This document shows, piece after piece, positions 17,341-52,989 of a stretch of DNA of 64,000 bases. The stretch covers positions 1 to 64,000 of the IMG/VR virus record IMGVR_UViG_3300034062_002410. One strand, 5' to 3'. Under the pieces are notes generated by a model, which was given only the letters and a program-made list of their open reading frames with translations, had not been told where the DNA came from and made no database searches. This stretch comes from a virus. Position 1 is the stretch's first letter, and the number at the start of each line of letters is the position of its first letter. The translations under genes and the position numbers were made by a program.

Positions 17341-20300
17341 ATGTGTCCATATCCTGATGATAATTCAATAGTAAATCAAAATACTAATCCAGTTGTTCCT
17401 TTAACTGATGAACAATTTGCAGCAAGATATAAAGAAGGTAGTTTACCAGGTCAAGAATTAAATTTTCCAGAAGGAAGGTTTACAAATTCAGGTGAAACTT
17501 TTTCTGAAATTACTTCAGGTTCTACATCAGCATTTGATGATGTTTATGAACAAAGAATGAAAGAACTTGAAAAAGAAGTTGTCAAAGAAGATTATGATAA
17601 TCTTCTTACTGGTGGTGGTAAATTAGCAGGACAATTACTTTATAATGTTGCAGCAATGGTAGGAGATTTTGTAGGTCTTGTAACTGACCCTGGAGATATT
17701 AGACTTCCTACCCTTGGTGGAACTGCTGATTTTCTTACAGGATTATTTGGATATAAAACAGATGTTGGAGCATATACTGATTATTTTGACCCATTTGCAA
17801 CTGCAAATGAAGTTTTTAAAGCAATAGATAATTACACATTTTGGGGAGATGGAGAAGATGAAACAGGAAATATGTGGACAAGAGATGCCCAAAGTTTAAG
17901 AGATAAATCTCAACACTTTTTTCAAATAAATACTTCTAATGATTATTTTGATGTAGCAGCTAATTTTACTATTCCTATTATAGGAAGTGTTTTAGGTGCT
18001 GCAAGAACTGGGCAATTTACAGCTGCTGCAGGACAAATAGCAGGGTTATCTAAAGGAGCTAATGCAATGATGAATTCATTTATAATGACTGAATCTACTG
18101 GATTATCTATTGCACAAGGAGTTCATAATGAAGTATATAGAGAGGTGTTAAATAAACTTTCAAATGGTGAATTACAAAAATTAGAAGATAAAGCTTATTC
18201 AGAAGCTTTTGATAAAGCTGTAGCTGATGGGTATAATAAAAAAGATGCAGAGTGGTTAGGCATACAAGCAACTAAACAAGCAAGAACTGACTTTGCAACA
18301 GCTAATCCTGAACTTGGTAAAGAAGCTTCTAAAAATGCAGGTAAAGGTGCTGATGTAGCTTTAAAATCTATGGCTCCTTCTTTTGCATTGAATATGATTA
18401 CTGGTAACATGTATACTAGAAGTTTGTATTCTCCAAAGAATATATTGTCTAAACCAAAATGGATTCAGCCAATTGACGTATTAAAAGAAATAAGAAATGA
18501 AGTCTTAGAAGAATCTGGTATTGAGCAAATTGCAGAAAAAGCAGGTATTGCCTATGGTACTAAAGGAACTTATAACTTTGAAGATTTAAAAAATACTATA
18601 GTTAGTTATGATGCTTTATACTCAGGAATAGGTGCAATTATAGGTGGTGGTGGAGGTGCAGTATTTAGTAGCTTACCTTACATAGGAGATTTTAATGAAA
18701 GAAAAAAACAATATGATGAGCAGCAAGAAGTATTAGTAAAACAAAATAGAATAGGTAATTCAGCAGGACTCAAAGACATGATTGATAATGCTACTACTTT
18801 AACTATGGATTTAGGTCAAGTAGTTAGACTTGGAAAAGAAGCTGCTATATTAGAGCAATTGGGGATGAAAGAAGAAGCTAACATGATAAAAGATAAGATG
18901 TTATCTATCCAAGCTCATGAAGCATTTAAATCAGGTACAACTAAAAACTTAATTGAGAATTATGAAAAGATAGCATCTAACCCAAATGCTGGTCCTGAAG
19001 TACAATTAAAAGCAAGAGAAGCTGTTGCTGAGATTAAACAAATGGGGGAAATTTATGAAAAAACAAAAGATAAATACATTAATGACCAAGAAGTTTACAG
19101 TAATAAAATTAATGAACATAACCTTAATAAAGTTGAAAGACAATTAGAAACTGAAATTATTCAAAAAAAATTAGAAGCTGATATTGCTATTAAGTTAGAA
19201 TTAGAATCAGGTAGAACATCTTTGACTAGTGGTGAAGAAACTATTATAGATAATGAAACAGGAAATGTAGTTACTCAACCATCACAATTAAATTATAATG
19301 TAGCAAACTTAAAAGTTAATCCTTATGTAGGTGTTGATAAAGATGCTGAAGTATATAGAAATTTTAGTGAGTATGTAACTAATAATGTTCAAGCAGTAAG
19401 AGAACTAAATGAATTAGAGCAAAGACTTGGTAATGTTAAACAATTTAAAAAAGATAATTTTGAAAGATATAATAAAATAACCTCTAAAGCATATCAAAAA
19501 TCTTTAAGATATGAACAGAAGTTAGCTAGAGTATTTGATGCAGGTGAAAAAGAACTTGAAGAATTAAAAGGTACTAATCAATATATGCCTTTAGTAGATG
19601 CCATAATGGAAAAATACAAAGGTAAAATAGATGAGCAACAATTTAAAAGTATAAGAAAATATTATGAAAATCAAAACAATACTAAAAAGGTAGCAGAAGA
19701 TATAGCTAAAGAAGAAATTAAAAAGAATGAGTTTGCTAAATCTGAAACTGAAGAAACTGAAGTTACACCTACTGATGAAACTTCAGCAGTTAAACCTGAA
19801 GGTAGTAAAGCTATGTTAGAAAATATAGCTCGTAAATTATCATCAGGTGAAGCAAGGTCTATTAAAAAACTTACTAAAGAAGAACAAGATTTCTACATGA
19901 ACAATCAAAGTTTAGTAGATAAAAGAACATCAGAATTAAAAAATGAAATTGATAGTCAATCTCAAACAGAAATAACTGAAGATGAAGAGTTAAGTCAAGA
20001 ATTACAAAATGTAAGTAATGAAGTAAGTTCTGAACTTGATGGTATATTAGGAAGTAAAGAAGAAGAAACTGAAAGTAAACCTTTATCTAATACTGAAGTA
20101 AAAAATGCATTACAAACTCCTCAACAAATACTTGATAATAAAATACAAGCATTAGAAAATGAGAAACAAATATTAGAAAATAAAAAAGAAGAAGAAATTA
20201 AAAACTTACCTAAGCAAAATGAAGTATTAGCTAAAGGATTAAAAGATTTTAATCTTACAACATTTGATGAACAAGTTAAATTTTTTGAAGATGCAATTGA

Positions 20301-23300
20301 ACGTAGAAAAAAAGAAATAAAAGAACTTCAAGAAAGAATTAAAAAAGATAAAGATATTATTACAGATTATGCATTAAACGTACTTTATAGTAAATTATCT
20401 AGAGCAGTAGATGGATTAAATACTAATCAAAAAAACTTAGATGCATTATTAGCTGAAACTAAGATTAATGAAAAATATGATAAACAAATAGAAACTTTAA
20501 ATGCACAAATATCAGAATTAAAATCTGAACCTATATCTAAAGGTGAAGTAAAAGATGTATTAGGAACTAGTTCAAGTGCAATAACAGCATTAGAGGAAGA
20601 AAGAAAACAAGCACATCTTGAGGTTGAAGAAATGGGAATAGAAGGAAGTGGACATAGAACAAAATCAGCAGCTCATGCATACATAGATAAAATGTATGAT
20701 GAAAAAAGAAAACAATTAGAAACTAAAACTTCTACATCTCAAGAATCTAATGCAGAAGCAATAGCTGAATTAAAAAGAAAACAACAAGAAGAAATAGATA
20801 AAAATGCACAAAATATAATAGTAAAAAAAGAACAAATTACATGGAAGGATGATGAGGGAAAAAATAGAAAAGTGTTAATTACACATTACGCTGATGGGAA
20901 AAGGGTAGTTGAGTTTATGGATGAAGATGGAACTGTAACACATAAAGAAAGAATACAAAAAGATAGAGAAATAGAGTTTGCTATCGGAGCTTTTAATTAT
21001 AATACAAATGAAAAATTAACTGTACAAAAAGAAGATATTGTTTTTAAAAGTACATTATTAGATAAAATCAATGCTAAATATAATGCACAAATTACAGTAT
21101 TAGAAGGTAAACCTGTAAGTCAAGAAACTAATGTAGCACAAGAAATAGAAAAATTTATTAATAGAGTTATACCAAACCAAGAAAAAAGATTATTAAATGC
21201 ACAAGAAATAGCTTCTAATGGAAAAACTTTCAATGAAGCTATTGATAATCTTATAAAAAAATCTGAAAATGCTAGAAATAAAGCTAATGAACGGCTAAAA
21301 AAAGAAGCTGCTAAAGAAGGTGTTAAACCTCTTGACATTCAAGAACGATTAGCTGAATATAAAGAAACAAAAGAAGCAGATAGATATGATTATTTAATAG
21401 AACAAATAAATGAAGTTTATGCAGTTGAAACTGAAAACTTTAACAATTCTACACAAGAAGCTATTGATTATGAACAAGGACAACTTGATATAGCTAATAA
21501 AAGATTATCTACATTAGAAAGTCAACCTACAGAAGTAAAACCTGATATAATTTTATCAGGACTTGCTGGAGGATTTAAAGGAGTTTCTAAAAATTCTTTT
21601 GATGTAAGAAATTCAACGGAAGTAATGAATAATGTAAACTCTGGTAAATCATTTTCTGAAATAGTAGAGTATAAAGGTAAAAAATATGTTGTTGTTGGAC
21701 TTAGGTTAGATACTGCAAGATTTTCTACAACAGTTGGAAGAGATAACTATTCTTTTGCTGTTGCTGAGCTTAATGAGAATACACCAAATAATATTGTAGA
21801 AATACTTGAAACAAGTGCAAAAGAAAATTTTAAAAATATATATTCTGATTTTAATAACAATGATGTTATTAGACCTATTACAGAACAAAACAAAGAATTA
21901 TCTGCTTTAAAAAGTAAACCTACAGTAGAACAAAAACAAACTAAAGCTGTCAAGCCCTTAAACTTTGTCATATCAGGGATAGGTGGAATAGGTAGAGGAG
22001 GGTTTAGAGTTTGGAAATCTCAAAACTATAATGTTGAGGCAGGTGGCAATGAGGCTCAAGATAATAGGAGTAAACAAGAAGTAAGCGAGCTTACTAATCC
22101 AACTGATAAGACAAGACTAATAGGTAGGTTCTACTCAGTTGACCAAGGTGATAAAGTAACTTATTATGCAAACACTAACGAAGTTGCTTTTGATAATGAG
22201 TTTAAAAGATTGACAGATGCTGTTAATAGAGGCGCAAGTGTCCAAGTAAGTGTTACTGTAAATAAGTCAGACAATGTCAATGAGGCAGACATACAGAAGG
22301 CACTACTAGAAAAGCTAACTCAAGTTGTTGAGGTATCTGTAGATAAGAATACTTTCAAAGCTAATCCTCAAGCTGACTTCTCAGGAATAAGTTTAAATGA
22401 GATTAATCCCACTAAACAACAAGAACAAGTTACTTTATCTCAAAAAGAACAAGAAATATTAAACTCATTTAAAGATAATAAAGCATCTAAACCTTTACTT
22501 AATAGAAAGTTTGCAGCTAATAAATCTGAAATAGAAAGTTTATTAGCTAAAGGTATAATCAAAGAAGATGGTAATAACTATGTAATTGCAGGCAGAGAAG
22601 CTCAAGAAGTAACTCTTACAGTACAAAAAACTAAAGCAGAACAAGTTGCTGATAATTTATTAGCAAAACAATTTACTCGTAATGCTGAAGGAACTTATAA
22701 CTTACAGATAAATTTAAAAGCATTATCTCCTGAAGAAAAAGCAGACATTGAAGATGCTGTTAAAGTTATTAAAGAAAGAATTAAAAATAATCAACTTGAT
22801 GGTTGGGAAATAAATAAAGTTAGTAATCCATTATTTGAAGTAGTTACAATAACTAAACCTAATCTTACTTCTAATCAACCAATGGAAGAAGGTGATGTAT
22901 CTTATCAACCTGATGAAATACCAACACTAACTAAGGAGCAAGAAGAGAAGATTAAAGACCTTATAGAGAGTTATGTTAATACAATGGAAATTGACAATAA
23001 TAAATTTCCAACATTTGAAGAACTTGTAAAAAGTTATATTAGAACAGTAGGTAAAGAAAAAGCAGAAAAACATTTAAAATTATTAGGTACAGGTTGGGAA
23101 CTAAATGGTTATGGTACTATTAGTGATTACAATGCTATACTTAGAAAGCTATTTGGAAAAAGGGAAGACATAGCTTTAGGTATATCAGCAATGAGTGAAG
23201 AGTTATCTCAAAGTGTAGCTGCTCCTGAAGAAGTAGAAGTAAAACAAGATGAGTTAATTAAGAAAGAAGAAATCAAAGATAGTGCAGAACCAATAGATGT

Positions 23301-26300
23301 AACTCCTGATAAACAAGTTGTATACTCTACTGAAACTGATATTGTAAGTGATACAAGTCCTAAGTTAGGTTATTCAGTATTTGATTTTTCAATCTCTCAA
23401 AAAGTAAGAGGTAAAGATGGTAAAATAATAGTAACTACTGATACTATAAATGAAGGATTGAAAAAGAAACAAGATGGTCTTGTAAAAGCTATTAAGACAG
23501 CAAACTTTGAAAATGTTAAAGTTGGTGCTAAATTAACTGTATCAGTTAATCCTTTAAATGAACTTAATAGAGTAAAGTCATGGGTTATACCAGCAAGAGT
23601 AGAGGATAAAAACAGTCCATTATATGGTACTGATGTATTAGAAAATGGGAAAGTTAAAACTATAAAGTTTGGTGAATGGTTAGACCAAAAAGTAAAAGAG
23701 TCAGGATTACCTGTAGAAGAATTTATGGAAACTCAAGAATTTTGGGATAGAGTTCCTATTCTTGTTTCTGATGAACAAGGAGATTTCATTGCACAAGTAC
23801 ATGACATAGGATGGTATACTCCTGCAAAATTTAATGGTGACATTAAAGAAGCAAAAAGAAATGTCAATGAAATTAGAAAGTTAATAAAGGAAGCTTTTAA
23901 AAGAGGTGAGAATTCAGTATTTGAAATTACTAATATTACTGGTGGTAAAACTGATGGATTAAAACTTACTGAACTTGTACCATTAAAAAAAGCTAATCCT
24001 CAAGCAATGATGGGATTAATTGTTAAGGATAAAGATGGTAACTTTCAAACATTTATTTATGAAAATGGAAAAAGAAAAGAAGTAAAAGTTGAAAATCTTA
24101 GTGTTATCACAGGAGCAGAACAAAATAAAACTAAGTCTATGATGAAAGTAGACATTAGAAGATGGGGAACTGATGCTGATGGTAAACCTACTTATAAAGC
24201 ATTTTACTCTACTAGTCCTAAGTTATCTGCAAGTCAAGTTAATACTGTTAAGAATATTATATACTCTAAACTTATTGTTGCTAATAATAATTTATCAACT
24301 TCACAAAATAATAAGTTTGGTAAATTACTAAATGCAATTAATTCTACAATAGGTTCTGATATAACTAACAATGAATCATTTACAGATTTATTAAAAAGAT
24401 TTGTTTTTATTTCTCCAGTTAAAAATGTAAGTCAGGAATATAGACAAGGTCTTATCAATAAAGTAAATGAAGGAAATATATCTGAAGTTGAAAATACATT
24501 AGCAACTTCATACTTTAAAAATATTAATAAATTAGAACCTGGGCAAACAACTATATTATCTTTAGCTCCTGATATTTTAGTTGTTGCTAAGAATGGCAGT
24601 AATGGAATAGAAGTAAAAATTATCAATAAGAATACTATTCCTGTAGAGAATAATGAAATTGTAAATAATCAAGAGTTCTTACAAAGAGATGCACTACTAC
24701 AAGAAGCATTGCAAAACTCATTATTAAATGGTTATGCTCAAGTTGGTAATTATAAACAACCAGTAATACAAGTAAATAATGATTTTACTTTAACTACTGT
24801 TGCAAATAATTATCCAGAGTTTGTACAGAATAATGTACTAACTAATCTAATGTCTGTAAATGTAGGCACTAATGATAAACCTGTATATGCTACAAGACTA
24901 CAATCTAATATTTATTACAAACCTGTAGGAACAGCACCTGGTAAAAGTGTAAGTAGAAAAGAAGGACAGACTATGGTTAGTGATAGCAAAGTAACTGAAA
25001 AAGATAAACAAGCTATAACTAATGTAGTAGAGTCAACTTCTGATGAAGCATTTGAAGAAGCAGTAGAAGGGGTAGAACAAGATGGCTTTGAATTATTTGG
25101 AGATACAGTAGAAGAGAAAGCTGAAGACTTAAAAGAAGTAGTTAAACAAATGAGTAATGAATCTAAAGAGATTGTAGAAAATCATTTAGAAGCAGGACCT
25201 AACTTAGATAATATAAGTGAATACAATGAGTTTTTAAACCAAGCAAGTAATAAAGTAAAATGGGTTAATGAATATTTCAATGAGGATAATACTGAATCAG
25301 CAGAGTCTTTAGAATCTAATCAACCTAGAGAAATAGGTGAAGAAGATGTTGAAGATATGGCTATTAATTTATTGAGAATTAATGGTGTCAGTAGTAGACA
25401 TCAATCTCAATTGGCTAACTATGCTTCTGTTAAACTTGGTGATATACTTTCTACTAAAGAAATAAATCAACAAGAGGTTAGAGATAAAGTAGTAGAGGAT
25501 ATTACTAACACATTGAATGCTAACAAAGAATCATTACAAGAAACTCTTGCTCAATTAAAAAGCATACCTCAGTATCAGGATAGACCAAAGGTAATGGAGC
25601 TTGTTGTTAAATATGAAACTGCACTTAATAAAATAAACCTTGTATTAGATAATATAGATGTTATTTATAAACAAAGTGTAGCTATAGCTTTAAAAGATTT
25701 AAATGGTAAAGTCATTGAAAATGATGAAATAGAAGTTGGTGATGACCCTAATGACAATGACCTTGATAACCAAGAGAATGAAGAAGATGTAGATGATGAA
25801 TTGAGTGAAGAAGAAGATAGACATTTAGGAACTGAAAACTATTCTAAGACTTCATTAGAGGTAAATCCTAAAGCAAGTATTACTTCTACTCTTAGAAGAT
25901 TTATGAGAGGTATTCCTGATATTAGTCCCACTACTGGATTACCCAAATCAGGTGCAATGGGTGTAACTACTTATGTAGACTTTGATACTGTATATGATGT
26001 AGTTCAATCTTTGTTAGCTGATGCTCCTGTTGATTTCAACATGATGATGGATATACTTGAAGTCAATAAAAATAAACAACCTTGGCTTCCTATACTTATT
26101 AATAAATTAAAAGAATCAAGTTCTGAAGTTAAAAATCAGTTTACTACTACAATGGGTAAACATGCTTTAACTATGGAGTTCTTAATGTATTCTTTTGACA
26201 AAGAAGGTAATGCAACTTTTAAAATTGTCAATACTAACTTATCAAGTATTAATCGTAAAATAAAAGATGAGTGGTCAAATAATCTTACTTCATCTAATGT

Positions 26301-29300
26301 TCTTATAGATGAATATGGTAATGTAAGTAGAGATACTGTTGATGAGTTACTTAATGAATATAACTCATGGATGAAAACTCCAAGTGTTTTAAGTTCTGTA
26401 CATCAAAGATTTATCAAAGAAAGATTAAAACTAGGTGAAACATCTTTTAATGCTGATGAAAATAATAAAACTTTAAATATAAGTGTTGAATTAGCACAAC
26501 AAAAAACTAATTCTAAAATTACAAATATTGATGGTAAAGAATATTTAGTTTCAATAGGTAGTGATGATGTTGTTTATGTAACTCCCTATGAAAGAAATAT
26601 AGTTTCTAAAGCATTGGTTGATTATGCTAGTCTTACTCCTGCTGAATCCAAAGAAGCTATTGAAAAGATTAAAGATTGGTTTGATGCCTTTGGTATTGAA
26701 TTAACTGATAATGCTATTGATGGATTATTTAAAAATCCAAAAGTATCAGCATCTCAATTTTTTGAGCAAAGTAATAACTTTGCAGTAGGTAGTCTTGTAA
26801 AATGGTTAGATACTACTAGAAAAGCTTTTTCACAAGATAAAGAAGTAACAATTACAGAAGGTAGTAAAAATAATCCATTAGATAATTCTGCTGTTAGTGA
26901 CCTTGCATACCATCAATCTAAATACTCATCAGGTATTGTAACTTCTTCATTTAGAGATGGTAAAAAATCTATTTATGGATTTACTGCATTTAAATTTATT
27001 ACTGATAGAGCTAATGAGATTAAAAATAAACCTGAGTTTAGAGATAACCTTAGAAAATTATCTTTTTCTAAAAATTCATTTTGGTTACAATTATTTGAAG
27101 ATGGTATTGATTTACCAGTATATAACTTTAAAGAAAGATTTAATGTTACTCACTTAGGTTTAACTGCACTAAAAGAATTTGCTAAGAAGTTATACAGAGA
27201 TAATGGTATTACTTCACTTGGTGATGTTGACCATGAATTAGTTAAAGTAGGTATGCATCAAGCTGACCAAGGTGCATTATCAAAGCCATTTACTGTATTT
27301 GGACAACAGATAAGTTTAAGAAATATAACTGCTTTGTTTCCAACAATGTCAGATAAATCTACAATGACATTAGTTAAAACATTAGGATTAAATCTTACTG
27401 ATAAAAAATACTTTGATAAAACTGAAAATGGTAAACTTGTACCTAATAAAAGCATAGCTGAATTTATTTTTGAACAAACTGTATTACCTGAAATAGAAAG
27501 AGTTATAAACTTTAATGCAAAGAATCCTAATGGTACTGACATTAAGAATTATGACAAGGGTGCTAAGATGCTTTTGTTAATGCCACATCTTAATGATTTA
27601 GTTATCTTTGAAAAAGATGGTAAGAAGATTACTTTGAATGAAGCAATAAATACTAAGAATGCAAAATTACAAAAAGTCTTAAGTAAGAAAGATGTTATCC
27701 TTGCTGAAGTACAAAATTATGTTTCTGCATTAGTAGAGGAGAAAATGAAAGTATGGGCAGCTAATGGATATTATACAGTAGAAGAAAAAGATGGAAAAAC
27801 TAAAGTAACCAATAACTTACTTGATAAAAAATACATGGAGGGAGTTGTAGCTGATAGTCAATTAGAAAAAATTGAACTAGCTGCAATGGATTTTGAAATC
27901 AATCAAATGTTATCTAATGCTAATGCATTTATGACAATGATTGGTGACCCTGCTATTTATTATAAAGCTGATTCTTCTAAATCTTTTATTCAGCAAAGTA
28001 AAGAAACCTTTACTAATGTTGGTAAGAGATTAGCTTTAATGATTGCTCCTGGTTCTAAGTTAGCTGATTCTGAAACTGAACAATACACTCAGGTAATGCT
28101 AGAAGACAGAGTTGCTATGTCTGAAAACATTAGTTTTTTAACTGAAGTATTAGATAATAAAAAGTTTGATTGGAAAGAATACAATAGAATAAAAAGTCTT
28201 AATACTAAATCTGATGACCCAGTAAAAGCTAAAGAACTTAAAGATGAGCAGAAAAAACAATTTGAAGAGTTTTATGATAAGTATCCTAACTCAAATGGTT
28301 ACTTTAATATAGAAGGAACTGATGCTCAGGAATATACTACATGGCAAGAACATCTACATATCTTAGAAAAGTTAGGTAGATTAAATGATGCTACTGTGAG
28401 TATTACTCCTGAAGAGATAAGAGAAGCAAAAGAAATGTTTGCTAATAATACTCCTTATTCTCAAATGTCAGATAAACAAAAAGGTATTCTGAAGAAAGTT
28501 CTTCAACCTATTAAACCAGTTTATACAGGTCAAATATTTGATGAAGCACAAGATGTAATGAGGACTGTATATATTAAGTCATCTTCATTCCCATTAATTC
28601 CTCAAGTAACTGAAGGTACTGAACTTAATAAACTAAAAGAAGCATTAGAGGCTTTACAGAAAGAAGGAGCAGGTCCTAACCCATCACCATATAAATATGT
28701 AAGAGCTTCTTACCAATCTGCTAATAAAGTAGGTGCTAAAGCTAAAGCATTAAATATGTATGAAGATGATGGTTCTATTAAAGACCTTAAAGTAGAAGAC
28801 TTAAAAGCTTCATCACTTACTCTTAATAGAAAAGACTTTAAGATTCAGTTAGATGTACCTTATAAGTCATTTAAGAAAAAAGAAGATACAGTTAGTTTAG
28901 GTACTCAGCTTACTAAGATATTATTTGGTAATGGTGTCATGGATGCTACTGGATTTATGTATAATGGTAAACCTATAGATGGAGTAGAACTTGAAAAAGA
29001 ATACACTAAAGCATTTATAGAGTTAGTTAATTATAAAACTCAACAGCTTTATGATGAATTAGGTATAGATATTAAAACTAACAAGCCTATTGATGTTAGA
29101 GCAACTGCTGCTAAACTTCAAAACATTTTAAAGACTGAAGCTATAAATAGAGGTTACTCTAAACAAGATGTTGAAGCTCTTGAAGTTATCATTAAAGAAG
29201 TAAATGGAGAAGAAGATTTAACTTTTAAATTACCATTGTGGTTAGCAGCTAATGCTAATAGATTTGAATCTCTTTTAAATGCTGTTGTAAACAATAGAAT

Positions 29301-32300
29301 AGTTAAACTTAAGTTTCCTGGTAGTTCATTTGTAGCAGGTTCTGAAGAAGGATTTAAAATTCAAAAAGATTTTAAAGGTGTAGATAAGAACAAAATAGTA
29401 TGGACTAAAAACTGGAATGGAAAAGAATTACAAGCAGCTAAATATGATGCTGATGGTAACTTACAATATGCTCAAGTAATTGCTCCATCTAAATTTAGAA
29501 AGAAAGATGGTACTCTTATTGATTTGTTAGAAAGAAAAAATAATAAATATGTCTATGTAACTGAAACCAAACAAGGTTTTAAACTTAAAGAAGACATGAT
29601 TGACCCTGAGTTGAGAAACATTACTGCATTCAGGATTCCAACTTCAGGTCACATGTCAGCAGCTCAAGTAGAGATAGTTGGTTTCTTACCTAATGAGCAA
29701 GGGGATTTAATGATTGTACCAAAAAACCTCACTAAACAAAAAGGTCTTGACTTTGACGTAGATAAAGAAAACACTTATAGTCTATGGCATGAAACTGATG
29801 AGAATGGTAAGATTACTGTATTGAAAGAAGGTGATAAAGAAAAGCTATTACAAAATGAAATTATTAAAATTCATACTGCAGTATTAAGTAATCCAGATAA
29901 AGAAGTACAGAAGAAAATTAATAATATTCTATCTATTGACTATGCTAAAGAACAAGCAGAGAATATAGATAGTATGATTTCTTCTTCTAAAGATGAAACT
30001 TACTTTACTCCATTAGGTTCTGAGTATCAGAAAAATAAAATGTTCTTAGGAGCAAGTGGTAAAATAGGTATTGGTGCTTACTCTTTAGATGTAACCACAC
30101 ATTCATTATTTGAACAAGCTAAAGCTAAAGGAAACCAAGTATCATTAAACTATACTGATATTGATGAAAAAGGTAAAACTATTGCCAATCCTTTTAATAT
30201 GTCTTTTGAAGGAGAAGGAAGAACTGATGGAACTTTAGGTAATCAACAAACAATAGATGGTCAAAGAACTATTGCACAAGTATTATCTGAATTACAAAAC
30301 ATTGCTACAGATAATGAGAAAGAGCAAGTAATGGGTAGAGTAAATCTAAACTCTTATACTCTTGATGTATCTAAGATATTAGCAATGTTAGGATTTGACA
30401 AAGCTAAAAATGGTAACTCAATTCAGTTTACATTCTTATCTCAACCTATTATTAGAGAGTATGTAAAAGAAATGGATAATGTCAATTCTAATGTTGCAAA
30501 GTTTAATCCTAATAAAGAATCTGCAGTAATTAATAAGCTATTAGAAAAGTATGGTAATAAGAATTATGAGTTAGGATATGATGTTGATGTTCAGAATACT
30601 AAGAACTTCACTATGGATAAGATGGAGAATCAGTTAAGAGGTGAAGTAGATAATGATTTTCAATTAGCTGTTTTAAATAGATTCTTAGAATTAAAGAAAC
30701 TTGGACTTGCTGTAAGAACATTACAAGGTGCAATTAATACAGATTCAAAAGGATTAGGTAAATCTATATTAGATAATTCTCAAAAGATTGAGAGTATAAA
30801 TAACCTATTGAGTAATCCAGTAATAACTAATGCAGGTGAGTTGTTAGGTAACTTTATTCCAATAGTAAAATATGAAAAAGGTAAGAGAATTAAAGCATTA
30901 AGTGATGCAGAATATCAATCTTATATAAATGATGGTTATGTAAAATTTGGTGATAACTTATTCTTACCTACTACTGTTAGTGGTGTATTTACTGCTAGAG
31001 CATTAGTAACTGCTACTTCATTATGGGATAGGCATTTTCCATATAACTCTAAGTTATTCAATTCTATTTTTGAAAATCTAATGCCTTTGATATCTAAAAG
31101 TGAAGCAAGTGATGCTAAGAAAGTAGAAAAGAAATCAATGGTTATTAAAGAAATCAAAAGATTCTTAAACTCTTATTCTGCTTCTAATACATTATTTGAT
31201 AATATAAATGCACAAGCAGAAAGAGAAAGATTATTCTTTGATAGACCAAGTACTGGTAAAGTATCTTTAGCAACTTACATTAAAGAACTTAAGAAAGCTA
31301 ATAGTTCATTAGCATCTAATAAGTTAATAGAAAGACTTGAGTTAGTAGCAAATACTCAAGGTGAACCATCATTGATAAAATTCAATAATACATCAGCAGG
31401 ATTCTATGATGAGAATGGATTAAATAATGCACTACTTGAACTAATGGAGTTAAATCTTAACTTACCATCATTTAATAATGAACCATATACAAGTAGAAAA
31501 TTAGCACAAGATTTAATTACCTATTCTTATCTTGAAGGAGGAGTACAAGAAGCAACTCAATTTGTTAAATTTATTCCATTGTCTTATCTTAATAAGATGG
31601 GATTCACTTTTGGGTTATCAAATATTGATTTTGATTCAATGGGTGCATACTCAATATTTGATATTAATCCTGATTTACTAAATACTAACTCAAAATTCAT
31701 AACTCAGTTTGTTCAACATAATCCTGGTATCTTACCTAAGTTAGATAACTACATTCCTAAAATTGGAGATATCAAAAACATAAGTGAGGTAACTGAGTTT
31801 AACATTGAAAAAATGTTAAATGCTATTGAGTATCAAGGAATGACTGCAGCAGAGTTTTATGACTATTATAAAATGGATGCAAAACAAATTGAAGAATTTA
31901 AAATTGCACTTGCTAATAAAGTCAGTAATTTTTCAATGCCTGAGTTTGTAGCATTAAGAAAAGATGGTGAATACTTATTATGGAAAAGTGCAGGTAATGG
32001 AAATTATGTACAAGTTCCTGTAGTTCAATCAGGTATATCAGAATATGATAGTAATGTACAACAAATTACTCCATTATCATCTGAAATAGTTACTCCTCAA
32101 AATCCTGTTAAAGAGCAACCATTAAGTCCTTCATCAGATGAATCTAAAGTAACTAATGAAACAAGATTTGGATTAGGTACTGATGCTTCATTAACTGATA
32201 TAGTTACTAACTTAGCAAACTCTACAAGTATAGATGAATACTTAATAACTTTAGCTAAACAATTATTACCTGCCATTAACCCAACTACTAGTATTACAGT

Positions 32301-35300
32301 AGATAATATTAAAACAAGAGGTAAATATAAAAGAGCTGAAAATGCTATAACTATTAGTGCTAGTCAAGCTAAAAATGCTACTGATACTGAATTAGCAAGA
32401 ACTATTCTTAAAGAGTTAATGCATTCTATTACTGATAATGAACTTGGTAAACATGTATATAGAAGCTCAGGAGATAATAAATACTATTTAAAATCAAGTG
32501 ATGCACCTAAGCATATTTCAGTACTCATTAATTTATTCAACCAAGTATCTAAAATACCTGAGTTTGAAAATGCAATAGAGTCTATTAAAAAGAAATTAGC
32601 AATAGAGGGGCAAGAGCAAGCACTTACACCAGAAGAAAATAGAATTTATTATGGTGCCTATGATGTATATGAGTTTGTTGAAATGATGATGACTCAACCT
32701 GAGTTTCAACAAGAGATGGCTAAGATTAAAACTGGTAATGGTAAATCAGTATTAGACTTATTTAAAAACTTCTTAAATACTTTATTTAAAAATTTAGGAA
32801 TACAATTTGAAACAGGTACTGTTGCTTCAGAAGCTATTGAAAATATATTAATCCTTGTTGATGAAAAAGGTAGACTTAAACAACAACCTACTCAAACTCA
32901 ACTTATTGCAAGTACTCAAACTGAATCTAATTTATTTTCAAAAGATGAAATAGATGCTATAAAAGGAAATTATTTAAATGCTGATGATTTAAGTATTGAG
33001 CAATTAAAAACTGTAGGTTCACCTTTAAGTTTAAAATTAGCAAAATTAAAAGAAGATATAAAATCTGCTTCACCATTTAATAAAGCAGATATGAAATTAA
33101 AAGCAATGGATTTTTTAATTAATAATGAAGAAAAATTAATTAAAGAATTACAAATCTTTATACAACAAACTCCTGAAGTTAAACCTACTACAACATCTAG
33201 TTTACCTGGACCAGAAACTAAAATTAATATTTATGCAGGTACAAGAGAAAATGCTGAGTTAAGTAATTTTGCTATTAGACCTTTTACTATAGATTATGCA
33301 AGAATAGGAGAATATGGCTTAGGTAAAATAAAATTTCAATCGGTAGAACAAGCTTTTCAATATATTAAATTTGAAGATTTACCTTATACTGAAGAAAATG
33401 TAAAAACTGCTAATGAAATTCTTAAAACTGTTGATGGAGCAAAATTAAGACAACTAGGTAAACAGTTTAAAGGATTAAATAAAAGTTCTTGGGACAATAT
33501 TTCATCTCCTATGATGAAACAATTAATTCAAAGGTCTTTTGAACAAAATCCTGATGCTCTTCAAAAACTTCTTGCTACAGGTAATGCTACTCTTACTCAT
33601 AAAAGTCCTTATAAAGATGACAAATGGACTACAGAGTTTCCTAAACTACTTATGGAAGTAAGAGAAGAACTTAAAGGTCAACAACCTACTACAACTACTC
33701 AACCTAGTACTCAAGAAATACAGATGCCTAAACCTACAGGTGTTTTTACAGAAAGATTAAATGAAATTAGAAAAATATATAGCGGTAATAAATCTTATAT
33801 AAACACTAATGTTAGTGGTGCAGAAGCTTGGGAACAAATAAATGCACAGCAAGGAAATGTTAAACCAGAAGATATTTATAATATTAAAGATGAAATAGGA
33901 GGTAATTTGTTTGAATATTTTAATAGAGCATATCAATATATAACAGGAAATAAATTAGTACAAGATAAAAATTTTGTAATACCAATAAATCAATCTTCTA
34001 AATCTACTACAACTACTCAACCTATTGTTACTCAAGAAGTTAGTAAATCTGATTTAGAAAAATTAAAACAAACTCCTGAAGGTAAAAAAATAGAAAAAGA
34101 AAGACAAGAAGAATTAAAACCTTATTTAGTAACATCTATTGATGATAAGATTAATATTATAAATGAAAATCTTGGAAAAATGGGATTTGCAGGCTTAGCT
34201 AATTCGCCATCCATTATTTTTACATTTAATGAAAGAGAACCTTCTACAAGTTTTTTACAAAAACCTATAACAAAAGAAGGAAGTAATTATCGAATAATTA
34301 CAAGTAGATATAATGTACTTGTAGATAAAGATTTTAATATTATTAGTACAACAAATGTTGATACAGGAAAAACTTATAAATATAAAGAATCTGAAATAGG
34401 AAATTCAATAGTTGAAATAGGAAGAGTTCCTGATAATTTTAAAGTATCTCAATTAATAGAGCAACTATTTAATGAGAATACTGCTTATAAACAAAACAAA
34501 CAAGAAGAAATTAATAAAAAATATGATGAAGAATTAATTGCTGAATATAGAAAACAAGAAGTCAAACCTACACCTACTGTATCTAATTCTATTAAGAATG
34601 ATTTGTTGAATATCCTTGAAGATATAAAAAGAGAAACTGATGATGAAAGTTTAAATGATAACTTAGAGTTTCCTGTTGTAAATGCAAGTGAGTTTTCAGG
34701 TTACCCTAATATTCAAAAATATCTTAATACTGAATATGGTATAGAACAAAGAGAATATGAATTTTTTAAGTTACATAAAGATGTAGTAGAAGATTTGTTA
34801 TCAAGTATGAAAGAAGTTAATCCTACTAACTTACTTGAAAAACTTAAATCTGTAACTGATACTAATGATACAGGAGTTGACTCTAATATTAAACCTATTA
34901 TTACTTCTGATACTAAAAAGGACCAAGAATTAATTAAAAAAGCTAATGAACAAATAAAGAATACTAAGTATGAATTATTTCCTGGTGTAGGTGCTAATGT
35001 AAAACAAACAGAAGCATTAGATAAATTAACAGATTTCTTAAAAGCACCAATAGATAAATCAGAAAAAACTCAATCTACTTTTGTATTAGTAGGTAGAGGT
35101 GGTACTGGTAAAACTACTATTGTTAAAAAGATTGTAGATGAATTTCCTGGTAGTAAAGTAGTAGGTGGTGCTATATCTCATACTGCTAAAAATAATTTGC
35201 AAAAATCATTAAGAGGTAAAACAGTAAGGACTATTGCTTCATTGACAGGCATAGGAGTATTTGATGATTTAAATGATTTTAAAGATACAACATTGTCAAG

Positions 35301-37014
35301 AGCTGATATTATCATTATAGATGAATGTTCTATGATTGATACAGCTACTATGAATAGAATTTATCAATTAGCTAATCCTAATGCTAAAATTATATTCATG
35401 GGTGATAATGTACAGTTACCACCTATTGAAAAAAATACTAAAGAATCTCCTACTTTTAATGCAGCTACTAAACCAGAAAATAATGCTAAGTTAACTAAAA
35501 GAATGCGTCAAGGTGAAGATTCTCCTATTGTACCTTTATCTGATATTGTAGCAGAAAATATTGAAAGGTCTGAAAAAGAAATAGAAAGAAAAGTTATTAA
35601 AAGAAGAGATAGTAACTTTAATCCTGTAACTAATAAAGGTGTAATCTTTACAGATAACAATGCTGAACTAATGAGTAATCTTGAAAGAGATTTTAAAGCT
35701 GATGTTCAAAACACTAAGATTATAACTTACACTAATGATGAAGGTAAAACTGGTAATCCTGGTAATAAAAAAGAAATGAATGGAGTAGTAAGAAAAATAC
35801 TATGGGGTGCAGATGCTAAAAATGAATACAATGTAGGAGAAATATTAGTAGCTGATAATATTATTTATGATGCAAATATTCTTAATGGTGAATATTATGA
35901 AGTTCAAGGGATTAAACCAATAAATGATGCAGTTAGTATTACTGCTGTTGAATTAATTCCAGGAAAAGGTATAGTTACTAATCAAAAAAAGTTTCCTGGT
36001 TATTCTTTAAAAGTAAAAGTAATTTCTGAAACTGATAACTTTAATAAAATAATAACTTTAAATTTGCCTTCTGCTGATTCAAAACAAAAAATAGATGAAA
36101 TTCAAGAAGGTTTAAAAACAGCTAATAAATCATTATTTTATCAAAATAAAAAAATAATACCTGATGTTAATTATGGTTATGCTATAACTTCTCATAAAGC
36201 TCAAGGTTCTACTTTTAACAATACTTATGTAATGGAGGATAATATTATTAACTCAGGGATGAGTAATAAAGAAGCTAATCAAGCATTATATGTAGCAATG
36301 ACAAGACCAAGAAATAAATTGGTAATGTTCTCTGAATTAAAAGAAGGTGAGTTTTTAACTGAGAAGCAAAAGGAAAATATGGTTCCTACTGGTGAATCAT
36401 TACAACCTGAAGAAATAAAATTAGGAGTAGAAGAACTATTTAATTCTAATTCTGAATTATCTTCTATTGGAACTCCTCAACAATACTCTCAATACTTAAA
36501 TACTATATTTCCTGATAGTCAAGTAAAAGATATTGTTTATCATGGCACATTAAATAAGTTTGAATTTTTTGATAAGTCAAATCTTGGAATAAACACTTTT
36601 AAAGATAGACCTAAAGGATTTTATTTTACTAGAAAGAATGTAGCTGAATATCTTTATGGTACTTTTAAGCAGATATCGCAAGAAACAGGAAAAGAAGAAT
36701 TTGTAAAAGGTAATTTAATTAGTGCAGTTATTAATACTAAAGAACAATATCAATTAGTCCAAGAAAAAGATGATATTAGCGGTTATGGAGATTTTGTTGA
36801 ATATGAATCTCATGTAGTATTTGAACCAGAACAAATACATATATTAGGAAGTAAAGATGATATAAAAGGATTTAAAGAGTTTGTAGAAAAGCAATCTACT
36901 CAAGAAGTAAAAGAAAAAGTTCAAGAAACTAAAAAAAATACAGTATCTTCAGCAATTGAAAATCAAATTGAAGAACTTATCAAAAAAGGTATTATTAAAT
37001 CTAAATGTGATTAA
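17341..37014 (+). CDS. Giant virion RNA polymerase polypeptide fused to NADAR, SF1 helicase and ADP-ribosyltransferase-like modules
   Basis: 6557 residues, one uninterrupted frame. The RNA polymerase signature is at 4137-4141, DFDVD, within FRIPTSGHMSA...MIVPKNL...KGLDFDVDKENTY. This corresponds to the R-x-P-T...DFDGD region of the beta-prime double-psi barrel, whose three Asp residues bind catalytic Mg2+. Residues about 500-1450 are Lys/Glu-rich predicted coiled coil. About 5021 carries a degenerate peptidase-like KELMH. About 5292-5440 is a NADAR/YbiA domain (IYAGTRENAELSNF, FQSVEQAFQYIKF). About 5870-6345 is an SF1 helicase: Walker A GRGGTGKTT (5918), Walker B IIIDECSMID (D5994), GDNVQLPP, SHKAQGSTF and YVAMTRPRNK. 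About 6397-6520 is an ADP-ribosyltransferase-like fold (VYHGTLNKFEFF, KGFYFTRKN, HVVFEPEQIHILGS) of the type found in phage polyvalent proteins. crAss-like phages inject such polymerases. Whether this one is cleaved is unknown. Confidence 0.85.
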   Translation: MCPYPDDNSIVNQNTNPVVPLTDEQFAARYKEGSLPGQELNFPEGRFTNSGETFSEITSGSTSAFDDVYEQRMKELEKEVVKEDYDNLLTGGGKLAGQLLYNVAAMVGDFVGLVTDPGDIRLPTLGGTADFLTGLFGYKTDVGAYTDYFDPFATANEVFKAIDNYTFWGDGEDETGNMWTRDAQSLRDKSQHFFQINTSNDYFDVAANFTIPIIGSVLGAARTGQFTAAAGQIAGLSKGANAMMNSFIMTESTGLSIAQGVHNEVYREVLNKLSNGELQKLEDKAYSEAFDKAVADGYNKKDAEWLGIQATKQARTDFATANPELGKEASKNAGKGADVALKSMAPSFALNMITGNMYTRSLYSPKNILSKPKWIQPIDVLKEIRNEVLEESGIEQIAEKAGIAYGTKGTYNFEDLKNTIVSYDALYSGIGAIIGGGGGAVFSSLPYIGDFNERKKQYDEQQEVLVKQNRIGNSAGLKDMIDNATTLTMDLGQVVRLGKEAAILEQLGMKEEANMIKDKMLSIQAHEAFKSGTTKNLIENYEKIASNPNAGPEVQLKAREAVAEIKQMGEIYEKTKDKYINDQEVYSNKINEHNLNKVERQLETEIIQKKLEADIAIKLELESGRTSLTSGEETIIDNETGNVVTQPSQLNYNVANLKVNPYVGVDKDAEVYRNFSEYVTNNVQAVRELNELEQRLGNVKQFKKDNFERYNKITSKAYQKSLRYEQKLARVFDAGEKELEELKGTNQYMPLVDAIMEKYKGKIDEQQFKSIRKYYENQNNTKKVAEDIAKEEIKKNEFAKSETEETEVTPTDETSAVKPEGSKAMLENIARKLSSGEARSIKKLTKEEQDFYMNNQSLVDKRTSELKNEIDSQSQTEITEDEELSQELQNVSNEVSSELDGILGSKEEETESKPLSNTEVKNALQTPQQILDNKIQALENEKQILENKKEEEIKNLPKQNEVLAKGLKDFNLTTFDEQVKFFEDAIERRKKEIKELQERIKKDKDIITDYALNVLYSKLSRAVDGLNTNQKNLDALLAETKINEKYDKQIETLNAQISELKSEPISKGEVKDVLGTSSSAITALEEERKQAHLEVEEMGIEGSGHRTKSAAHAYIDKMYDEKRKQLETKTSTSQESNAEAIAELKRKQQEEIDKNAQNIIVKKEQITWKDDEGKNRKVLITHYADGKRVVEFMDEDGTVTHKERIQKDREIEFAIGAFNYNTNEKLTVQKEDIVFKSTLLDKINAKYNAQITVLEGKPVSQETNVAQEIEKFINRVIPNQEKRLLNAQEIASNGKTFNEAIDNLIKKSENARNKANERLKKEAAKEGVKPLDIQERLAEYKETKEADRYDYLIEQINEVYAVETENFNNSTQEAIDYEQGQLDIANKRLSTLESQPTEVKPDIILSGLAGGFKGVSKNSFDVRNSTEVMNNVNSGKSFSEIVEYKGKKYVVVGLRLDTARFSTTVGRDNYSFAVAELNENTPNNIVEILETSAKENFKNIYSDFNNNDVIRPITEQNKELSALKSKPTVEQKQTKAVKPLNFVISGIGGIGRGGFRVWKSQNYNVEAGGNEAQDNRSKQEVSELTNPTDKTRLIGRFYSVDQGDKVTYYANTNEVAFDNEFKRLTDAVNRGASVQVSVTVNKSDNVNEADIQKALLEKLTQVVEVSVDKNTFKANPQADFSGISLNEINPTKQQEQVTLSQKEQEILNSFKDNKASKPLLNRKFAANKSEIESLLAKGIIKEDGNNYVIAGREAQEVTLTVQKTKAEQVADNLLAKQFTRNAEGTYNLQINLKALSPEEKADIEDAVKVIKERIKNNQLDGWEINKVSNPLFEVVTITKPNLTSNQPMEEGDVSYQPDEIPTLTKEQEEKIKDLIESYVNTMEIDNNKFPTFEELVKSYIRTVGKEKAEKHLKLLGTGWELNGYGTISDYNAILRKLFGKREDIALGISAMSEELSQSVAAPEEVEVKQDELIKKEEIKDSAEPIDVTPDKQVVYSTETDIVSDTSPKLGYSVFDFSISQKVRGKDGKIIVTTDTINEGLKKKQDGLVKAIKTANFENVKVGAKLTVSVNPLNELNRVKSWVIPARVEDKNSPLYGTDVLENGKVKTIKFGEWLDQKVKESGLPVEEFMETQEFWDRVPILVSDEQGDFIAQVHDIGWYTPAKFNGDIKEAKRNVNEIRKLIKEAFKRGENSVFEITNITGGKTDGLKLTELVPLKKANPQAMMGLIVKDKDGNFQTFIYENGKRKEVKVENLSVITGAEQNKTKSMMKVDIRRWGTDADGKPTYKAFYSTSPKLSASQVNTVKNIIYSKLIVANNNLSTSQNNKFGKLLNAINSTIGSDITNNESFTDLLKRFVFISPVKNVSQEYRQGLINKVNEGNISEVENTLATSYFKNINKLEPGQTTILSLAPDILVVAKNGSNGIEVKIINKNTIPVENNEIVNNQEFLQRDALLQEALQNSLLNGYAQVGNYKQPVIQVNNDFTLTTVANNYPEFVQNNVLTNLMSVNVGTNDKPVYATRLQSNIYYKPVGTAPGKSVSRKEGQTMVSDSKVTEKDKQAITNVVESTSDEAFEEAVEGVEQDGFELFGDTVEEKAEDLKEVVKQMSNESKEIVENHLEAGPNLDNISEYNEFLNQASNKVKWVNEYFNEDNTESAESLESNQPREIGEEDVEDMAINLLRINGVSSRHQSQLANYASVKLGDILSTKEINQQEVRDKVVEDITNTLNANKESLQETLAQLKSIPQYQDRPKVMELVVKYETALNKINLVLDNIDVIYKQSVAIALKDLNGKVIENDEIEVGDDPNDNDLDNQENEEDVDDELSEEEDRHLGTENYSKTSLEVNPKASITSTLRRFMRGIPDISPTTGLPKSGAMGVTTYVDFDTVYDVVQSLLADAPVDFNMMMDILEVNKNKQPWLPILINKLKESSSEVKNQFTTTMGKHALTMEFLMYSFDKEGNATFKIVNTNLSSINRKIKDEWSNNLTSSNVLIDEYGNVSRDTVDELLNEYNSWMKTPSVLSSVHQRFIKERLKLGETSFNADENNKTLNISVELAQQKTNSKITNIDGKEYLVSIGSDDVVYVTPYERNIVSKALVDYASLTPAESKEAIEKIKDWFDAFGIELTDNAIDGLFKNPKVSASQFFEQSNNFAVGSLVKWLDTTRKAFSQDKEVTITEGSKNNPLDNSAVSDLAYHQSKYSSGIVTSSFRDGKKSIYGFTAFKFITDRANEIKNKPEFRDNLRKLSFSKNSFWLQLFEDGIDLPVYNFKERFNVTHLGLTALKEFAKKLYRDNGITSLGDVDHELVKVGMHQADQGALSKPFTVFGQQISLRNITALFPTMSDKSTMTLVKTLGLNLTDKKYFDKTENGKLVPNKSIAEFIFEQTVLPEIERVINFNAKNPNGTDIKNYDKGAKMLLLMPHLNDLVIFEKDGKKITLNEAINTKNAKLQKVLSKKDVILAEVQNYVSALVEEKMKVWAANGYYTVEEKDGKTKVTNNLLDKKYMEGVVADSQLEKIELAAMDFEINQMLSNANAFMTMIGDPAIYYKADSSKSFIQQSKETFTNVGKRLALMIAPGSKLADSETEQYTQVMLEDRVAMSENISFLTEVLDNKKFDWKEYNRIKSLNTKSDDPVKAKELKDEQKKQFEEFYDKYPNSNGYFNIEGTDAQEYTTWQEHLHILEKLGRLNDATVSITPEEIREAKEMFANNTPYSQMSDKQKGILKKVLQPIKPVYTGQIFDEAQDVMRTVYIKSSSFPLIPQVTEGTELNKLKEALEALQKEGAGPNPSPYKYVRASYQSANKVGAKAKALNMYEDDGSIKDLKVEDLKASSLTLNRKDFKIQLDVPYKSFKKKEDTVSLGTQLTKILFGNGVMDATGFMYNGKPIDGVELEKEYTKAFIELVNYKTQQLYDELGIDIKTNKPIDVRATAAKLQNILKTEAINRGYSKQDVEALEVIIKEVNGEEDLTFKLPLWLAANANRFESLLNAVVNNRIVKLKFPGSSFVAGSEEGFKIQKDFKGVDKNKIVWTKNWNGKELQAAKYDADGNLQYAQVIAPSKFRKKDGTLIDLLERKNNKYVYVTETKQGFKLKEDMIDPELRNITAFRIPTSGHMSAAQVEIVGFLPNEQGDLMIVPKNLTKQKGLDFDVDKENTYSLWHETDENGKITVLKEGDKEKLLQNEIIKIHTAVLSNPDKEVQKKINNILSIDYAKEQAENIDSMISSSKDETYFTPLGSEYQKNKMFLGASGKIGIGAYSLDVTTHSLFEQAKAKGNQVSLNYTDIDEKGKTIANPFNMSFEGEGRTDGTLGNQQTIDGQRTIAQVLSELQNIATDNEKEQVMGRVNLNSYTLDVSKILAMLGFDKAKNGNSIQFTFLSQPIIREYVKEMDNVNSNVAKFNPNKESAVINKLLEKYGNKNYELGYDVDVQNTKNFTMDKMENQLRGEVDNDFQLAVLNRFLELKKLGLAVRTLQGAINTDSKGLGKSILDNSQKIESINNLLSNPVITNAGELLGNFIPIVKYEKGKRIKALSDAEYQSYINDGYVKFGDNLFLPTTVSGVFTARALVTATSLWDRHFPYNSKLFNSIFENLMPLISKSEASDAKKVEKKSMVIKEIKRFLNSYSASNTLFDNINAQAERERLFFDRPSTGKVSLATYIKELKKANSSLASNKLIERLELVANTQGEPSLIKFNNTSAGFYDENGLNNALLELMELNLNLPSFNNEPYTSRKLAQDLITYSYLEGGVQEATQFVKFIPLSYLNKMGFTFGLSNIDFDSMGAYSIFDINPDLLNTNSKFITQFVQHNPGILPKLDNYIPKIGDIKNISEVTEFNIEKMLNAIEYQGMTAAEFYDYYKMDAKQIEEFKIALANKVSNFSMPEFVALRKDGEYLLWKSAGNGNYVQVPVVQSGISEYDSNVQQITPLSSEIVTPQNPVKEQPLSPSSDESKVTNETRFGLGTDASLTDIVTNLANSTSIDEYLITLAKQLLPAINPTTSITVDNIKTRGKYKRAENAITISASQAKNATDTELARTILKELMHSITDNELGKHVYRSSGDNKYYLKSSDAPKHISVLINLFNQVSKIPEFENAIESIKKKLAIEGQEQALTPEENRIYYGAYDVYEFVEMMMTQPEFQQEMAKIKTGNGKSVLDLFKNFLNTLFKNLGIQFETGTVASEAIENILILVDEKGRLKQQPTQTQLIASTQTESNLFSKDEIDAIKGNYLNADDLSIEQLKTVGSPLSLKLAKLKEDIKSASPFNKADMKLKAMDFLINNEEKLIKELQIFIQQTPEVKPTTTSSLPGPETKINIYAGTRENAELSNFAIRPFTIDYARIGEYGLGKIKFQSVEQAFQYIKFEDLPYTEENVKTANEILKTVDGAKLRQLGKQFKGLNKSSWDNISSPMMKQLIQRSFEQNPDALQKLLATGNATLTHKSPYKDDKWTTEFPKLLMEVREELKGQQPTTTTQPSTQEIQMPKPTGVFTERLNEIRKIYSGNKSYINTNVSGAEAWEQINAQQGNVKPEDIYNIKDEIGGNLFEYFNRAYQYITGNKLVQDKNFVIPINQSSKSTTTTQPIVTQEVSKSDLEKLKQTPEGKKIEKERQEELKPYLVTSIDDKINIINENLGKMGFAGLANSPSIIFTFNEREPSTSFLQKPITKEGSNYRIITSRYNVLVDKDFNIISTTNVDTGKTYKYKESEIGNSIVEIGRVPDNFKVSQLIEQLFNENTAYKQNKQEEINKKYDEELIAEYRKQEVKPTPTVSNSIKNDLLNILEDIKRETDDESLNDNLEFPVVNASEFSGYPNIQKYLNTEYGIEQREYEFFKLHKDVVEDLLSSMKEVNPTNLLEKLKSVTDTNDTGVDSNIKPIITSDTKKDQELIKKANEQIKNTKYELFPGVGANVKQTEALDKLTDFLKAPIDKSEKTQSTFVLVGRGGTGKTTIVKKIVDEFPGSKVVGGAISHTAKNNLQKSLRGKTVRTIASLTGIGVFDDLNDFKDTTLSRADIIIIDECSMIDTATMNRIYQLANPNAKIIFMGDNVQLPPIEKNTKESPTFNAATKPENNAKLTKRMRQGEDSPIVPLSDIVAENIERSEKEIERKVIKRRDSNFNPVTNKGVIFTDNNAELMSNLERDFKADVQNTKIITYTNDEGKTGNPGNKKEMNGVVRKILWGADAKNEYNVGEILVADNIIYDANILNGEYYEVQGIKPINDAVSITAVELIPGKGIVTNQKKFPGYSLKVKVISETDNFNKIITLNLPSADSKQKIDEIQEGLKTANKSLFYQNKKIIPDVNYGYAITSHKAQGSTFNNTYVMEDNIINSGMSNKEANQALYVAMTRPRNKLVMFSELKEGEFLTEKQKENMVPTGESLQPEEIKLGVEELFNSNSELSSIGTPQQYSQYLNTIFPDSQVKDIVYHGTLNKFEFFDKSNLGINTFKDRPKGFYFTRKNVAEYLYGTFKQISQETGKEEFVKGNLISAVINTKEQYQLVQEKDDISGYGDFVEYESHVVFEPEQIHILGSKDDIKGFKEFVEKQSTQEVKEKVQETKKNTVSSAIENQIEELIKKGIIKSKCD
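33686..34023 (+). repeat. Pair of identical 20-bp repeats flanking a module in the giant gene
   Basis: The same 20-base word (ctactacaactactcaacct) occurs at 33686-33705 and 34004-34023. It encodes the Thr-rich linker PTTTTQP/STTTTQP on both sides of a roughly 100-residue module downstream of the NADAR domain. A related Thr-rich linker precedes NADAR near 33184. Confidence 0.75.
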
Positions 37015-50673: not shown

Positions 50674-50674
50674 A

Positions 50675-52931: not shown

Positions 52932-52946
52932 ATAGATATAAATTAA

Positions 52947-52975
52947 AAAGAGCCTGATTGTTAGTCAGGCTCTTT
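52947..52975 (-). terminator. Internal terminator between Ubl gene and E2-like gene
   Basis: A perfect 11-bp stem (52947-52957 with 52965-52975) with a 7-base loop; on the - strand it is followed by a T run. Only 15 bases separate it from the E2-like start, leaving little room for another promoter. It would make the Ubl transcript more abundant than that of the enzymes downstream. Confidence 0.85.
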
Positions 52976-52989
52976 AGTTAGAAAATAAT

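Follow-up and report, generated by a model that had tools for sequence, protein, structure and literature searches.

The first 64,000 nucleotides of the IMG/VR virus record IMGVR_UViG_3300034062_002410 (hereafter the window; the whole record has 85,292 bases) contain a giant gene at 17341-37014 on the plus strand, whose 6,557-residue product combines an RNA polymerase (RNAP) core with a helicase, a NADAR domain and an ADP-ribosyltransferase (ART) domain. We infer that this product is the principal cargo of a crAss-like phage akin to Fipvunavirus and that it is carried in the virion, because its homologues phi14:2 gp66 and crAss001 gp47, gp49 and gp50 were found in virions by mass spectrometry (MS). 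Such proteins almost lack cysteine, and the cysteines at their ends follow a rule. When neighbouring cargo proteins are separately encoded, the upstream protein ends in cysteine and the downstream one starts with M(x)C; when they are fused, the junction carries none. We think it probable that the giant is ejected as the main cargo and that the cargo proteins are joined as a disulfide-coupled train. With a little more reserve, we also favour the general form of this proposal, a modular train in which a wagon would have a single cysteine coupler at each end that is joined, and neighbours would be either stapled by a disulfide or genetically fused.

The cysteine content of the RNAP and giant proteins was 0.058%, compared to 1.07% in the ordinary genes of the window. 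The window giant has only three cysteines (2, 5996 and 6556), and Cys6556, the proposed C-terminal coupler, is its second-last residue (37006..37008, +). A cysteine within the last 10 residues was found in 70 of 71 RNAP and giant proteins. The fused giants had one at the C-end in 49 of 49 cases and at their own N-end in 7 of 51, and three of these seven were preceded by a Cys-ended protein. The protein after a fused giant started with cysteine in all 44 cases and, as the last protein of the block, ended in one only once (1/42). Split RNAPs carried cysteine at the N-end in 12 of 14 and at the C-end in 12 of 14; separate upstream partners with 1,000 or more residues were always Cys-ended (17/17), and their RNAPs were Cys-started in 15 of 17. 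No cysteine occurred within 40 residues of the fused junction in any of 40 giants.

The same arrangement is found in known phages. In phi14:2, which shares with the window system the gp67-like half, the gene order and a terminal cysteine at every junction, the only cysteine of gp67 is residue 1797 of 1797, gp66 has Cys3 and Cys2179 of 2180, and the only cysteine of gp65 is Cys3. The packaged RNAP-associated giants of crAss001, detected in virions by MS (PMC10172136), show it as well: gp47 has one cysteine (2339 of 2341), gp50 has three (5, 1334 and 2404 of 2412) and gp49 one (Cys5). These differ from the window giant in being three separate proteins, and the rule (gp47|gp50|gp49) is kept though the genes are not adjacent and gp47 lies on the opposite strand. 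DAC15, in which the gp47-like gene is also on the strand opposite its partner, cr111_1 and phi17:2 (gp39-gp38-gp36) obey the pattern too. The fused gp32 of FpV4 has one cysteine in 4,287 residues, at 4286.

We tested the rule on 784 adjacent gene pairs, with gene starts chosen by a script and genomes of alternative code largely skipped. Among the Cys-poor pairs, 170 had both couplers, 115 neither and only 3 a single one. The relatives are not independent of one another, but the rule persisted after the strict removal of pairs more than 30% alike: 60 had both, 81 neither and 2 were discordant. Cys-normal pairs were near independence (neither 243, C-end only 42, N-end only 23, both 11). The three discordant pairs were those involving Cys2 of the window giant, a cysteine 13 residues from the end in the related record L183, just beyond the scoring window, and L239. 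In loci fetched by similarity to the ART and not to the RNAP, cysteine was present at the N-end in 36 of 36 and at the C-end in 23 of 24 proteins (reading frames of at least 250 residues), with internal cysteines at 0.012%. One of these, L245, encodes small proteins with cysteines only at their ends (3 and 251, 3 and 250, 4 and 286), and some ARTs there make up entire small wagons. Some coupled cargo genes are separated by Cys-normal genes that by eye resemble homing endonucleases with GIY-YIG-like starts (putative insertions at 2194-2860 and 3641-4286 of L218 and 2146-2860 of L245), and the cysteine pattern is unbroken.

A signal in the RNA, or translational coupling at the gene junctions, could leave cysteine codons at gene ends with no function in the protein, and the junctions are indeed mostly tight (gaps mostly about -14 to 30 nt). 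However, TGT and TGC are both used at close to their ordinary ratio (147/23 and 151/22), and therefore the constraint lies on the protein; a codon or junction signal as the source of the cysteines was rejected on this mixed usage. The cysteines are also kept in the gp47-like genes of crAss001 and DAC15 on the strand opposite their partners, and their distance from the C-end shifts between 1 and 9 residues. We consider the chance that RNA explains the pattern to be next to negligible.

It is also conceivable that the giant is a plain polyvalent virion RNAP whose terminal cysteines serve another purpose, for instance the binding of a metal or of some part of the tail or portal, and that no covalent train exists. 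The evidence from domains and homology is equal under this explanation, and avoidance of cysteine is general in ejected proteins: the N4 virion RNAP (3,500 residues) has no cysteine at all and thus no couplers, and T7 gp15 and gp16 are Cys-free, gp14 alone having a terminal cysteine (Cys2). End cysteines as a trait of all ejected giants are ruled out by the N4 and T7 gp15/gp16 proteins, which share the avoidance but not the rule. Binding to a third party, however, does not predict that the cysteines of the two ends at a junction occur in pairs (170 both against 3 discordant), that they are lost on fusion (0/40), or that they are lacking at the start of the first protein and at the end of the last one, and we find it unlikely. 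For lipidation or inteins as the cause of the terminal cysteines, no supporting features were seen, although no dedicated test was made.

In the disulfide-coupled train, the packaging, the bond, the order of threading and the targets of the enzymes would be as follows. The giant would be packed in the virion and ejected ahead of the DNA. Separate cargo proteins would be joined tail to head, the C-end cysteine of one to the N-end cysteine of the next, and a peptide bond would replace the disulfide where wagons share one frame. The window giant would then consist of fused wagons (gp67-like, RNAP, NADAR, helicase and ART), with the 1,545-residue protein encoded next coupled behind it through Cys6556 to Cys3. 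Internal cysteines may be avoided because the chain would be threaded nearly unfolded through the tail, where Cys-free bodies would avoid wrong disulfides. Ejection of the first wagon would pull the next, so that entry would keep its order, and the joints would be reduced in the cytoplasm, after which the parts would refold. There the RNAP core would start early transcription, the helicase would aid the incoming DNA or its transcription and replication, the ART would alter host molecules, and the NADAR would strip ADP-ribose from DNA or other molecules. New effector wagons, ARTs or others, could join as an inserted gene with M(x)C...C ends. In crAss001 the cargo passes a channel of less than 50 angstrom in a partly unfolded state, its order was proposed to be likely set by packing and cargo-cargo interactions, and inter-protein disulfides are present in the tail of the virion (PMC10172136). 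These tail disulfides show that crAss001 virions are oxidised enough for coupler bonds.

Several observations weigh against such a train. Cys2 of the window giant (17344..17346, +) has no partner, as the upstream 850-residue protein is free of cysteine. Some trains have internal cysteines (up to 15), and other bonds are possible. A disulfide between cargo proteins has not been observed so far, and these termini are not visible in the crAss001 structure. The gut hosts are anoxic, so that oxidation must follow lysis or be catalysed. Several of the gene starts called by the script are ambiguous, as in crAss002 gp33 (L089 8270-8420), whose true start is probably 32 codons downstream of the annotated one, at MSCTPSNP, a sequence that agrees with the coupler rule. 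The giant of L007 likewise has a Cys2 (MCPGPDN) and no Cys-ended protein upstream.

The earlier note on this DNA had described an uninterrupted frame of 19.7 kb with an RNAP site and three further modules, and all four named modules are real by profile and motif. The frame starts with ATG and runs without a stop in the standard bacterial code; at the base composition of the stretch, 6,557 stop-free codons would arise by chance with a probability of about 1e-260. The RNAP core of crAss type (26902..31740) matches 6VR4, FpV4 gp32 and phrog_16227 (E 1.9e-266). With the window protein alone as the query, phmmer found 6VR4, the phi14:2 gp66 RNAP, as the sole match in PDB (E 1.4e-18); a six-sequence profile that includes phi14:2 itself gave 6e-246, with an alignment over residues 1104-1830 of 6VR4. 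The catalytic DFDVD is at residues 4137-4141 (29749..29763), exactly where it had been placed, and aligns to DFDID1361 of phi14:2 gp66 within the conserved context RxP..S...GD....GxDxDxDK. In phi14:2, the RNAP is a virion component that carries out early transcription, as cited in PMC7886860.

The N-terminal half of the giant (17341..25200, boundary approximate) has as its homologue the protein encoded ahead of a split RNAP, of the phi14:2 gp67 or crAss001 gp47 type. BLAST found no similarity between this half and phi14:2 gp67, but profile methods did: a hidden Markov model (HMM) built from fused N-halves matched the split partners with E down to 1e-59, and hhalign gave 99.3%. The fused junction was placed near residues 2593-2639. 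In phi14:2, by comparison, gp67 and gp66 are separate, and gp66 (2,180 residues) aligns to the RNAP region only and is too short for extra modules. From the DxDxD to the C-end there are about 1,170 residues in typical giants of the clade (4,200-4,400 residues), compared to 2,420 in the window giant.

Among annotated proteins, the RNAP region is closest to those of the Flavobacterium phages Fpv3 and FpV4 (Fipvunavirus), with 37% identity; for FpV4 gp32 this extends over 1,058 residues of the core, and identity is 30-37% over about 2,000 residues. The FpV4 protein likewise fuses a gp67-like part with RNAP, but it has no helicase, NADAR or ART match, is about 2,270 residues shorter, and is accompanied by a separate DNA helicase gene, gp41. 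Fipvunavirus is placed outside Crassvirales in the NCBI listing, and one gut genome groups with Fpv3 according to Yutin et al. (PMC7886860).

The gene order in the window agrees with that of the cargo operons proven by MS in homologues. The co-directional late block on the plus strand consists of tail and virion structural genes (4870-10610), among them a virion structural protein of phrog_15100 in the position of the muzzle gene (5913..10610), then two proteins in the positions of cargo proteins C1 (1,385 residues, phrog_15413 of unknown function, 10610..14767) and C2 (850 residues, Cys-free, 14770..17322; gene order compared with PMC10172136), the giant, and the following cargo protein of 1,545 residues (37026..41663) in the position of phi14:2 gp65 and crAss001 gp49. 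The last has Cys3 and one further cysteine, at 1110. A replication block follows on the minus strand. Head genes outside the window match the PHROG families of the large terminase subunit TerL (phrog_6681), portal (phrog_6547) and major capsid protein (phrog_11589). That the protein is both a giant virion RNAP of crAss-like type and a polyvalent protein is well supported by homology and gene order; for this phage, the virion location itself is deduced from the MS-proven homologues. C1 of other phages contains pairs of cysteines eight residues apart (390/398 in crAss001 gp45, L085 16988-19516; 224/232, 211/219 and 273/281 in cr111_1 and DAC15), and the window protein in this position has Cys1004 and Cys1016.

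The NADAR domain (residues 5302-5434; 33244..33642, +) scored 60.4 bits against PF08719 (E 3.2e-16; cut-off 35.1), and its catalytic strand bears the phage-type histidine (TLTH; residue rule from PMC11125620). The helicase is of SF1 and Dda/RecD2-like (34495..36354, +), with matches to PF13604 (E 3.5e-23; no second copy occurs in the 85-kb record), UvrD_C_2 (6.8e-8) and the Dda-like phrog_325 (1.5e-71). Its motifs I, Ia, II, III, V and VI are intact and in order in residues 5918-6327, and "full SF1 helicase" was therefore a correct description. The C-terminal ART domain is of ART-PolyVal type (residues 6382-6521; 36484..36903, +), and H6401, Y6428 and D6477 agree with the HYD triad of polyvalent ARTs (PMC5512222). 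Alone, it scored 30.5 bits against PF18760, just below the cut-off of 31.2, and the assignment was upheld through its relatives: of 183 found in viral contigs, 35 were sampled, and 28 of these matched PF18760 (best 9.6e-14) and two the PARP catalytic family. An AlphaFold model built from the 35-sequence alignment (pLDDT 79, pTM 0.73) had the ART domains of PARP4, tankyrase, Arr and Tse6 as top structural matches, with weak statistics (Foldseek E 0.14, Z 5.3); Foldseek gave nothing under E 0.001.

Because NADAR reverses guanine ADP-ribosylation (PMC11125620), NADAR and ART could form a self-contained pair in which NADAR shields the phage DNA from a toxic ART, as in DarT-NADAR and YarT-YbiA. Of the three NADAR carriers, two have both domains in a single polypeptide: the strain of the window and L029, where it is the next cargo protein, with two ARTs. 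Most ART carriers, however, have no NADAR, the third NADAR carrier (L020) has no detected ART, and polyvalent ARTs of HYD type, to which this one belongs, are thought to modify proteins (PMC5512222). We therefore consider such a pair very unlikely.

A degenerate zincin motif, KELMH, is present at residues 5025-5029 (32413..32427, +), where most relatives have HExxH. HExxH zincins are frequent but not obligatory, and active, in polyvalent proteins (PMC5512222). Since the first zinc ligand is replaced by lysine throughout the subclade of the window (KExxH, including L008, L010, L014 and L064), this suggests a conserved inactive peptidase. The MS check proposed in the earlier note implied processed fragments. 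This found no support; a zinc ligand is missing from the sole peptidase-like motif that was detected in the giant. To that note, whose interpretation is partly supported, the analysis adds that the zincin is inactivated, that the helicase has moved here from a stand-alone gene, and that the terminal cysteines suggest a mode of delivery.

We surveyed the modules in 50 related records. The helicase lies within a large cargo-type frame in nine, as in the window record, and is a stand-alone gene of about 420-490 residues in 18. Because it is never both in these 27 records, the fused copy probably serves as the helicase of this phage. RNAP, helicase, NADAR and ART share one frame only in the window and in L006 (G001), which is 100% identical to the window across the RNAP query. 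The modules are mobile: relatives carry them at other sites of the giant, in the cargo protein that follows it, or as separate genes. ART and helicase precede the RNAP in L025 and follow it in L008, and NADAR sits in the giant of L020. The giant of L054 has a circularly permuted YpsA-like SLOG domain (E 1e-29) beside the helicase, and the tail of the L064 giant has a weak PD-(D/E)XK nuclease match.

Such variation could also reflect neutral decay or chimeric assembly, in which the loss of stop codons attached the helicase, NADAR and ART without giving them a function in the virion; close relatives differ in module content, and the L014 helicase is without its Walker A part. However, the identical frame of 6,563 codons from stop to stop recurs in L006, the helicase motifs, the NADAR histidine and the HYD triad of the ART are intact, and the helicase is either fused or stand-alone. 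Neutral fusion is therefore highly improbable.

The combination had been called remarkable. The full set in one chain is unusual, although fusions of RNAP with ART and with SF1 helicase have precedents. The gut crAss giants of cr50_1 and cr118_1 (4,774 and 4,946 residues) have RNAP and a C-terminal SF1 helicase in one protein; they differ in belonging to Suoliviridae and in having no NADAR or ART match in the C-terminal part. In Roseovarius Plymouth podovirus 1, an N4-like virion RNAP and an HYD-type ART are in one chain (PMC5512222), but this RNAP is an unrelated single-subunit enzyme and N4 itself is without couplers. Polyvalent proteins share with the window giant the many effector domains of one injected protein, delivery of the giant being deduced from its homologues.

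Two other loci of the window, both on the minus strand, were noted. At 49915-53637, a ThiF/E1-like protein (PF00899 4e-16, PRTRC_ThiF 1.3e-8), a weak JAMM/Prok-JAB protein (HLHSHH), a 407-residue protein of unknown function and a 215-residue protein with a ubiquitin-like start and then KKTKSGG look like a PRTRC-type cassette by sequence; the annotated ThiF genes of cr111_1 and FpV4 occupy similar positions. At 44813-45676, a radical SAM protein of spore photoproduct lyase type is encoded (TIGR03886 at E 1.3e-93, under the cut-off), in which the first 60 positions of the model are missing.

If the train is real, the covalent coupler rule would answer how several huge phage proteins enter in order ahead of the DNA, and delivery that is covalent, ordered and released by redox was not found described for any virus. 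Literature searches on cysteines, ejection and cargo proteins found no mention of the terminal cargo cysteines, although Drobysheva et al. 2021 or paper supplements may note them, and a full-text look for "cysteine" in the crAss001 atlas, the Crassvirales review and the polyvalent-protein paper gave none. The fusion in the window giant would then be a genetic alternative to the disulfide staple, and the giant a natural vehicle for the delivery of several enzymes, RNAP, helicase, ART and NADAR. The signature of a Cys-free body, an M(x)C start and a cysteine near the end could help to find injected effectors in the most abundant viruses of the human gut, which would be useful because many such effectors have no recognisable domain.
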